Source: Comamonadaceae bacterium (GTDB lineage: Bacteria > Pseudomonadota > Gammaproteobacteria > Burkholderiales > Burkholderiaceae_C). From it: 36,198 bases of DNA. The position numbers and the translations under genes were made by a program. The DNA lies in NCBI GenBank assembly GCA_009996515.1, contig JAACZV010000030.1, forward strand, positions 1 through 36,198, in the 5' to 3' direction. Positions within the stretch are counted from its first letter, which is position 1, and every line of letters begins with the position of its first letter. Under the pieces are notes generated by a model, which worked only from the letters and a program-made list of their open reading frames with translations, made no database searches and was not told the origin of the DNA. Below are positions 15,843-17,486 of this stretch, one piece after another.

Positions 15843-15919
15843 CGCGGGGTGGAGCAGTCTGGTAGCTCGTTGGGCTCATAACCCAAAGGTCGTCGGTTCA
15901 AATCCGGCCCCCGCAACCA
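15843..15919 (+). tRNA. Initiator tRNA-fMet (CAT)
   Basis: Seventy-seven bases fold into a tRNA with encoded CCA. The first base C faces A72 (unpaired), the hallmark of initiators, with stem GCGGGG/CCCCGC. The anticodon stem TTGGG/CCCAA holds the three consecutive G-C pairs needed for P-site entry, and the loop CTCATAA carries anticodon CAT (15877-15879). The T-loop reads GGTTCAAATCC. The 3' end from about 15909 was supplied by the integrated element and restores the full sequence. Confidence 0.97.
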
Positions 15920-17486
15920 ATACCGGAGACCCGTTGAGTGCCAGTCGCTCAGCGGGTTTTTCCATTTCGGCCCAGGTCGCGCCCGTGTCGGCGTCGCGGC
16001 CGATCAGCACCGGTCCGAGCATGTCGGCCAGCAGTTGCCGCGTGCGGTCGCGGTCAGCGTCCTCATCGAGCACGCGCTGTAGTTCCAGCACCTGGCGCCG
16101 GTAGCGCGCCAACACGTCTTCGATCACCTGGCGCGGGCCGGCCTCGGCTTGCTCGATCAGCTGTGCCAGCCGGTCGCGTTCGGTCTCAGCCGTGCGAAGC
16201 CGCTGCTGCAGGGCCGGGCTGATGCCCACGGCCGCGACGGCATCCACCAGCCGGGCAATCTCGGCGTCCAGCGCCTTGAGCTGGCGCGGGGCTGCTGCAG
16301 CGTCGCCGCTGGCCTGGCGCTGCAGGTCTGCGAGCAGTGCGCCGACTTCCCGCTGCAGCATCGCCAGGGCCTCCGGGTTCAGAAGCTCTTCGCGCACCTC
16401 GGCCAGCAGCCGCTTGTCCAGCATGTCGCGGGCCAGGGTCACCGATGAGCCGCATACGGCTGCGCCACGGTCGCGGTGGGCGCTGCAGCCGTAGCGCTTC
16501 GAGTTGATCGCCGTGAAGGCCGCGCCGCAGGCGTGGCAGCGCAGCACGCCCGCGAACAGCGTGCGGGGGATGGCGCCCTTGCCGGTGCGTGTGCCGCGAG
16601 CTGGGCCGCGACGCGCGCGGTCTTGCACGCGCAGCCACAGCTCGGCGCTGACGATGCGCAGCTCGGGTGCCTCGCGGACTTGCCATTCCTCCTTGGGCCG
16701 CTCGACGTAGCGGCGCCGGCCCGTCTCCGGGTCTTTCAGCCACTGGCGCCGGTTCCAGATGACGCGGCCGATGTACAGCTCGTTGTTCAGCATGCCCAGG
16801 CCTTTTTCGCTGCTGCCCTGCAGCGCGCTCACTGCCCAGGTGCCGCCCCGTGCGCTGGGCTTGCCCTGTGCGTTGAGCTGGTGGGCGATGTGGCGCGTGC
16901 TGTGCCCATCGGCGAACTGCTCGAATACCCAGCGGACCACCGCCGCTTCCGCGTCGTCGATCACCATGCGCCGGCTCTGGCCGTCTTCGGCGACGGCGCT
17001 GGTGTAGCCGTAGGTCCGGCCGCCCGCGTGGAAGCCGCGCTCGAATTGGCCGGCAAGGCCTCGGTGCGTCTTCTCGCGCAGGTCATCAAGGTACAGCTCG
17101 TTCACCAGGCCGCGCGCGATGCGCATGACCTTGCGGCCTCGGGCCTCTGTGTCGTAGCCATCGGCCGTGCCAATGATGCGCACGCCGCGATGCTCCAGCC
17201 GCTTGACGACGGTCTCGGCCTCGCCGATTTCGCGGCTCAGCCGGTCCAGCCCCTCGACGATGAGCACGTCGAAGCGCTTGGCCAGGGCGTCGGCCATCAG
17301 TGCCTTGCCGCCGGCACGCATCGCGAGCGGCGTCGATCCGCTGACGCCCTCATCGGCGTGCGTCGCCACCACGTGCCAGCCCTCGCGGTCGGCCCGGGCA
17401 TGGGCCTCGCGGAGCTGGTCAGTGATCGACGTTTCGCGCTGCTTGTCCGTGCTGTAGCGGGCGTAGAGCGTGGCTCGCTGGGTCAT
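15876..17486 (-). CDS. Large serine recombinase (integrase)
   Basis: The 536-residue enzyme has an N-terminal resolvase-type catalytic domain with Arg10 and Ser12 (YARYSTDKQ) and the DRLSR motif at 81-85, followed by the recombinase domain (about 140-290), a zinc ribbon with Cys317, Cys320, Cys334 and Cys345, and a coiled-coil-rich C-terminal part. It would insert and, with a directionality factor, excise the element. The gene runs into the tRNA: its last codons read VAGAGFEPTTFGL, antisense to the tRNA 3' half, and its TGA stop overlaps the anticodon loop. In the excised circle the frame would instead end VAGGRNCSRRRIKLNG. No good ribosome binding site is seen; it overlaps a small ORF upstream and may be coupled to it. 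Confidence 0.93.
   Translation of the reverse strand: MTQRATLYARYSTDKQRETSITDQLREAHARADREGWHVVATHADEGVSGSTPLAMRAGGKALMADALAKRFDVLIVEGLDRLSREIGEAETVVKRLEHRGVRIIGTADGYDTEARGRKVMRIARGLVNELYLDDLREKTHRGLAGQFERGFHAGGRTYGYTSAVAEDGQSRRMVIDDAEAAVVRWVFEQFADGHSTRHIAHQLNAQGKPSARGGTWAVSALQGSSEKGLGMLNNELYIGRVIWNRRQWLKDPETGRRRYVERPKEEWQVREAPELRIVSAELWLRVQDRARRGPARGTRTGKGAIPRTLFAGVLRCHACGAAFTAINSKRYGCSAHRDRGAAVCGSSVTLARDMLDKRLLAEVREELLNPEALAMLQREVGALLADLQRQASGDAAAAPRQLKALDAEIARLVDAVAAVGISPALQQRLRTAETERDRLAQLIEQAEAGPRQVIEDVLARYRRQVLELQRVLDEDADRDRTRQLLADMLGPVLIGRDADTGATWAEMEKPAERLALNGSPVLVAGAGFEPTTFGL
15908..15920 (+). repeat. attL copy of the 13-bp direct repeat
   Basis: CCCCCGCAACCAA at the tRNA 3' end is repeated exactly at 23121-23133. 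The repeat marks the left boundary of the element. Dyad analysis of the rejoined site puts the probable crossover at 15908/15909, so most of this repeat belongs to the element and rebuilds the tRNA acceptor strand and CCA. Confidence 0.85.
15924..15930 (+). other. attP outer arm, left-end copy
   Basis: CGGAGAC here is the inverse complement of GTCTCCG at 23100-23106. When the element ends are joined, the two arms lie symmetrically around the proposed crossover, each starting 16 bases from the centre. This fits a serine-integrase half-site. Confidence 0.6.

Follow-up and report, generated by a model that had tools for sequence, protein, structure and literature searches.

A serine integrase gene predicted to exchange its 3' end when its element integrates into tRNA-fMet

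The window, by which we mean the whole 36,198-nt stretch of Comamonadaceae DNA analysed here, carries an element of 7.2 kb that is bounded on one side by a tRNA-fMet gene (15843-15919) and on the other by a 13-nt repeat of the tRNA 3' end (23121-23133). By domain matches, its genes code for a serine integrase, a replication protein of the Phage_GPA family, a DUF6602 protein and a pair of HTH regulators. The features of the locus are as follows.

15843-15919, plus strand: tRNA-fMet, the integration target, whose antisense strand codes the last integrase codons (tRNA detection; initiator features read from the sequence)
15876-17486, minus strand: large serine integrase gene in its integrated-form reading, 536 aa with the tail AGFEPTTFGL (Resolvase, Recombinase and Zn_ribbon_recom matches)
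15908-15920: attL core CCCCCGCAACCAA, with a dyad centre at 15908-15909 and hence the likely crossover dinucleotide there (repeat and dyad analysis)
15929-15961, plus strand: probable replacement terminator brought by the element, a hairpin with a T tract that follows the tRNA and lies within the coding part of the integrase gene (fold -24.3 kcal/mol)
18356-20125, minus strand: predicted replication initiator of the element, start codon provisional (Phage_GPA)
20609-21361, minus strand: HTH_31 regulator of the element (domain match)
21409-22272, minus strand: HTH_19/HTH_3 regulator of the element (domain match)
22263-23072, plus strand: DUF6602 protein, the last gene ahead of attR (domain match)
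23080-23120, minus strand: P' arm, giving the circle-form tail GRNCSRRRIKLNG after the core, with a TAG stop at 23082-23080 (joined-ends reading)
23121-23133: attR core CCCCCGCAACCAA (direct repeat, assembly-wide core search)
23161-23183, plus strand: the host's own terminator-like tRNA hairpin, now at attR (fold -29.2; a similar hairpin stands in same-genus empty sites)

The integrase matches PF00239, PF07508 and PF13408 (an N-terminal resolvase domain, a recombinase domain and a zinc ribbon), all above cut-off. Residue S12 in the YxRxS region, which we take to be the catalytic serine, is nearly invariant in A1 and invariant in A5. Among the element's named genes, judged by their names rather than by a homology search, none stands out as a recombination directionality factor (RDF). 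The target tRNA-Met (15843-15919) is presumably the initiator, as it has C1-A72 and three G-C pairs in the anticodon stem.

The two copies of the 13-nt direct repeat are spaced 7,213 bp apart and are the only occurrences of this core in the 4.58-Mb assembly; because the core occurs nowhere beyond them, a core search of the assembly finds no circle junction. The locus has the marks of a tRNA-targeting integrative element, with the tRNA 3' end as target, the tRNA left intact and the core duplicated. Ten loci of same-genus genomes present the empty site, in which a flank and hairpin resembling the right flank of the window come immediately after the tRNA, and these sequences support the attB assignment. 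Another same-genus locus (L421) has an intact tRNA with a host-like flank, and a P' arm with a core and a second host-like flank 1.4 kb further on, which may be a small element or a remnant. The element seems to replace the tRNA terminator from within the integrase gene, the host hairpin being displaced to attR; this reading is based on the folds, as the terminator scan called neither hairpin (15929-15961, 23161-23183) by its rule. Comparable hairpins were seen by eye in G179, G388, G900, L008, L018 and L039.

In the integrated state, the integrase frame crosses the core and, antisense to tRNA-fMet, goes on until it meets a TGA within the anticodon loop, as the preliminary description of this DNA had read it. 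The frame ends in VAGAGFEPTTFGL, and its stop (15878-15876) lies over tRNA positions U33-C34-A35, so that the antisense of these three nucleotides, rather than a stop evolved by the element, would terminate the protein. When the element ends are joined in frame, we recover the second ending that had been proposed: the open reading frame (ORF) runs on through 23120-23080 and ends in VAGGRNCSRRRIKLNG instead of VAGAGFEPTTFGL. Counted from the sequence, the tail charge in the window is +5 in the circle form versus -1 in the tRNA-encoded form. The P' arm (23080-23120) is separated from the integrase gene in the integrated state.

The attP site has dyad half-sites about a central dinucleotide, as in large serine recombinases. 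Across 65 reconstructed and natural sites, the best dyad centre lies 10.5 nt past the T of TGG in 51, and P' matches its own P at 12.92 of 25 positions, versus 10.00 (sd 0.22, 500 reshuffles) for the P of another element. The window arms pair as GTCTCCG/CGGAGAC and GTTGCG/CGCAAC about a centre that sets the crossover at 15908-15909. Given the position of this centre, the integrase gene itself includes half-site P, and its tail comes from P' in the circle or from the tRNA in the chromosome. The set of sites includes G1308, a doubtful case with an 11-nt repeat and a stop in the ORF that was omitted from the cluster-charge and motif tests described below, and, despite having a 264-nt duplication of the integrase 3' end as its repeat, G1153; G146 was dropped, its upstream copy being a duplicate of that end. 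In G146 (L049), this second copy lies 37 kb upstream and diverges at the core, perhaps as the remnant of a tandem element, and the comparable duplicate in G1153 lies 35 kb upstream. More generally, a second core of at least 11 nt was found in 23 of 80 stretches and not found in the other 57, 18 of which had less than 10 kb upstream of the integrase.

Both states occur in nature. In phage contigs, the integrase frame passes from the core into DNA of the phage, for example ending in VAGARNFNRRRIRVG (L200), VAGARFVIKKRRRYRVA (L246) or VAGARSVLYLTEPFRIPLQPASDGE (L275), each followed by a stop. Three near-identical pairs, whose members come from different samples rather than from one strain passing through excision, differ at the tail, which is of circle type in one partner and of GFEPT/ATFGL type in the other: L221 versus L355/L213 (99.4% identity over 520 aa), L311 versus L316 (98.8% over 517 aa) and L277 versus L261 (95.0% over 504 aa). 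A whole tRNA is visible for L316, and the other partners with tRNA-type tails are trimmed at the tail. An exact search of IMG/VR with the P' arm of L221 returned its own contig only, and attR of the near-identical prophages was unseen. Together with the window reading, these pairs bear out the earlier proposal that a basic tail in the circle is exchanged for a tRNA-derived one in the chromosome. We conclude from these sequences that integration would turn one integrase isoform into another.

This arrangement is widespread among related integrases. We searched 300 genomes of the order, 369 of the class and 398 of the phylum, all three sets including the genome of the window itself, and then 198 and 121 genomes of two richer families, with cut-offs that varied from 1e-60 to 1e-50; integrase matches were found in 9, 6, 22, 35 and 31 genomes, respectively. 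Of the 99 loci that we examined, these searches supplied 97 (the window included) and a separate search the other two; from a close viral query, no more than two loci were obtained. The ORF ends inside a whole tRNA in 62 of the 99 (61 tRNA-Met, one tRNA-Glu), while 31 have no whole tRNA and four are cut by contig ends. Where a homologous locus has a whole tRNA nearby, it thus ends within it in 62 of 64 cases; the two that have a tRNA within 300 nt yet do not overlap it are L089, whose frame closes 26 nt short, and L038, where the gene is broken. By these counts, ending inside the tRNA appears more frequent than chance.

A wider collection of 324 integrase entries combined IMG/VR scans with the genome stretches, some entries being the same contig under two locus names. 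Of these, 179 carry a tail in frame A (GFEPTTFGL and kin) and 19 a tail in frame B (GSGGRI, GCGGRI), 99 match a loose core pattern and are not all true circle forms, and 27 make up the rest. A tRNA-type tail is therefore present in 198 entries, which fall at 70% into 103 frame-A and 15 frame-B clusters, 118 in all; the third antisense frame has no intact case among the 324. The quite different frame-B tail means that the integrated tail is not one fixed signal. In the 30 codons leading up to the core, the integrase frame is open in 115 of 116 clusters and the other frames in 25 and 45, although these clusters were selected by their tail and the 62 of 64 loci are the fair count. In 24 of 120 tRNA-tailed entries, the antisense tRNA sequence is cut short directly after the anticodon loop (TTATGAG or TTATGAT), and some entries target another tRNA-Met, taken as the elongator from its sequence.

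Several variants of the arrangement were seen. The serine recombinases L010, L334 and L396 end antisense in tRNA-Glu or tRNA-Gly, the same layout on other tRNAs; L333 and L336 (tRNA-Arg), for which the ARAGORN calls wrap around the end of the piece, and L397 are less sure. More distant serine recombinases on phage contigs (L328, L330, L331, L335, L337 and L338) have hydrophobic ends with RAA or KAA. The 24 entries whose tRNA is cut short, among them L020, L040, L085, L087, L095, L110, L123, L209, L253, L266, L269, L270, L273 and L276, may reflect a second insertion at that point or an attP that itself carries the tRNA 3' half and tail. If attP already carries the tail, integration would change nothing in those entries. 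The integrase 3' ends of L020, L040 and L022 have two cores about 20 to 35 codons apart in one frame, in an order resembling stacked att sites: a VAG core, then a second core leading to GFEPTTFRL.

Is the circle tail itself under selection? Its length was compared without bias in the 20 reconstructed attP sites, since natural circle forms were accepted only with the core no more than 40-45 residues from the end, a rule that caps the tail; 16 of the 20 reconstructed tails measure 10-26 aa, versus 12 of 40 readings in other frames (p=2.9e-4). The frame-B reconstructions G388 and G1188 were excluded from the tail counts. Net charge over the first 12 aa averages +2.10 in reconstructed tails versus -0.40 and +0.30 in the other frames (p=0.0014), and +1.98 versus -0.02 and +0.61 in 61 clusters (p=1.2e-6), with the qualification that related sequences stay non-independent even in 70% clusters. 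The frame-B entries L237 and L249 were included in this cluster test and excluded from the next. A motif picked after inspection, Arg or Lys followed by hydrophobic-x-hydrophobic, occurs in 31 of 59 tails versus four of 87 other-frame readings of at least 8 aa. The only two occupied sites outside the window that turned up through the host flank, rather than through the integrase, have predicted tails ACNHSLRRIYFPR and ARNRGWRQVRVWG, both basic and, at 13 aa, of the same length as the tail in the window; the motif is present in ACNHSLRRIYFPR and absent from ARNRGWRQVRVWG. Exceptions include L116, with a circle tail of three residues, three reconstructed tails of 37, 37 and 77 aa, and the 28 of 59 tails that have no motif.

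Codon patterns were compared in two groups of tails, hand-picked by alignability with L257/L308, L311 and L318 omitted because they could be aligned only by shifting them, if at all. Variability at the three codon positions (d1, d2, d3) is 0.29, 0.27 and 0.51 in the 13 RIPL-type tails (p=0.003) and 0.42, 0.35 and 0.52 in the 11 RRIRV-type tails (p=0.018), and Arg-Ile-x-Leu is retained via different codons. From nt 35 on, where few columns remain, d3 against the mean of d1 and d2 gives p=0.11 and 0.125, and d3 over d2 gives 0.039 and 0.125. Part of the likeness among tails is at the DNA level, because P' mirrors P. A pure DNA constraint was considered and is disfavoured: the dyad is real, yet it leaves length, charge and codon pattern unexplained. 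Basic, of similar length, often sharing a motif and varying most at third positions, the circle tails look to be under protein-level selection, and the circle tail is probably a selected peptide that is basic, strand-like and stopped within a narrow range. These signs of protein-level constraint make a neutral exchange of tails less likely.

AlphaFold models were run with 24-sequence alignments on two different proteins (65% identity), and their tails do not look alike. In the circle form of L200, a weak strand at 526-530 follows a beta hairpin at 488-502 (tail blocks pLDDT 63-66, mean 82.3), with residues 504-521 just ahead of the strand below 50; in the integrated form from the window, no strand follows the hairpin and residues 518-536 are below 50 (mean 80.1). 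The contrast between an ordered circle tail in L200 and a disordered tRNA-encoded tail in the window is suggestive only.

The sequences show the architecture, its two natural states, its conservation and the signs of constraint on the circle tail, and the following mechanism would account for them. The attP site spans the 3' end of the serine integrase gene, about 13 codons ahead of the stop, and in the circle the P' arm would encode a short tail that is probably a selected peptide. Insertion into the 3' end of tRNA-fMet would sever this tail and let the frame continue into the tRNA on its antisense strand, from which a fixed tail with its stop would come (AGFEPTTFGL and TGA). Integration would thereby exchange the last 13 codons for 10 coded by the tRNA, and the 13 would return on excision. 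Each state would presumably express its own isoform, that of the circle most likely being tuned for attP x attB synapsis or for stability, and that of the chromosome having lower activity or a greater need for a partner, which would favour staying integrated. As a whole, a circle isoform tuned for attP that is swapped on integration for a less able, tRNA-tailed one is our best explanation, with a probability of roughly 0.6. The 57 stretches with no second core, the 24 entries with a cut-short tRNA, L089, the three-residue tail of L116 and the three reconstructed tails of 37 aa or more weigh against its holding universally.

Alternatively, both tails could do the same job, the tRNA frame having been chosen for a peptide able to substitute for the one from P' and thus to keep the integrase competent in both integration and excision; the exchange would then be tolerated and nothing switched. 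The need for an active integrase in excision too, the hydrophobic-x-hydrophobic pairs found in many tails of both kinds (TFGL; RIRV, RIPL) and the predominance of frame A over frame B (103 versus 15 clusters) are all in keeping with this account. We nevertheless regard it as unlikely, given the opposite charges of the two window tails (+5 versus -1), the predicted disorder of the window tRNA tail against the weak strand of the L200 circle tail, and the GGRI ending of frame B. An overlap of att with the gene end that serves compactness and the tRNA terminator, with tail likeness due to half-site DNA only, is less probable still: the attP dyad does account for some of the tail sequence (the centre is equal in 51 of 65), a terminator-like hairpin for the tRNA is likewise carried in the 3' coding region and the codon test past nt 35 is not significant on its own, but the whole-tail third-position variability, length range, charge and motif are unmatched by other frames of the same DNA. 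Equally improbable is the idea that the circle tail marks the protein for degradation, in the manner of phage BPs, making the integrase of the free element short-lived and that of the integrated one stable; circle tails end in Ala more often than other-frame readings (19 of 59 against 16 of 113, p=0.005) and in AA in five cases, and AA-ending int genes are reported to be frequent in BPs-type phages (PMC8092301), but the window tail ends in NG, others in DGE, SRR or RES, and AA is found in just five of the 59.

The one-way action of serine integrases is a central question of site-specific recombination, and the usual answer is the RDF alone. In this family, in which 118 integrase clusters have a tRNA-coded tail, recombination would rewrite the coding sequence of the enzyme itself, and the two forms are available for direct testing. 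The two isoforms might distinguish a loose element from an inserted one. Going further, a widespread class of bacterial serine integrases could sense integration via the C-terminus, the strand-like circle tail licensing attP x attB or being recognised by a partner and the antisense tRNA tail parking the inserted enzyme in an inactive form until a directionality factor is produced; we offer this only tentatively, at less than even odds, and if it is true, the tRNA target site codes part of the switch. Integrases of this kind mined from prophages bear the tRNA tail rather than the circle tail, and may be tested in the wrong form.

In the titles and abstracts of the open-licence PMC literature, no serine integrase with an integration-exchanged tail was found, in agreement with the earlier statement that no such switch had been described for a tRNA-targeting serine integrase. 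Within that literature, as far as its accessible parts extend, precedent comes only from the repressor of BPs phages and from archaeal 'suicidal' integrases. As described in the portions drawn on here, mycobacteriophage BPs and its relatives have attP within a coding frame, and integration alters the C-terminal end of the product (PMC4557955; PMC8092301), a likeness to the present element. The gene switched in BPs is the immunity repressor and here it is the serine integrase itself; the integrase named there is of the tyrosine family, the protein is truncated, with a few host-coded residues added in some phages, and, unlike in those accounts, the new tail here is coded antisense in a tRNA. The ssrA-like -AA tag of the BPs free form is also absent from the window (NG) and found in five of 59 tails. 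Among structurally characterised serine integrases (SPbeta YokA, Bxb1 and phiC31), the listed SPbeta and Bxb1 rows have no aligned counterpart of the tail strand, their full-length alignments stopping at model residues 519-525 of 532. The Paracoccus phage vB_PamS_Pami6, likened here by its description alone, is a serine recombinase phage with a predicted tRNA-Met site, and the part of its report consulted makes no mention of tail exchange (PMC6536676). Archaeal SSV-type integrases have att in their own gene, which is split on integration, an arrangement said in the relevant part of that report to be restricted to archaea (PMC8371274). Those enzymes are tyrosine recombinases left in two pieces, whereas the bacterial serine integrase described here would keep its domains intact and change only its last 10-20 residues, so that the placing of att inside an integrase gene, archaeal in that account, would extend to bacteria and to another enzyme family.
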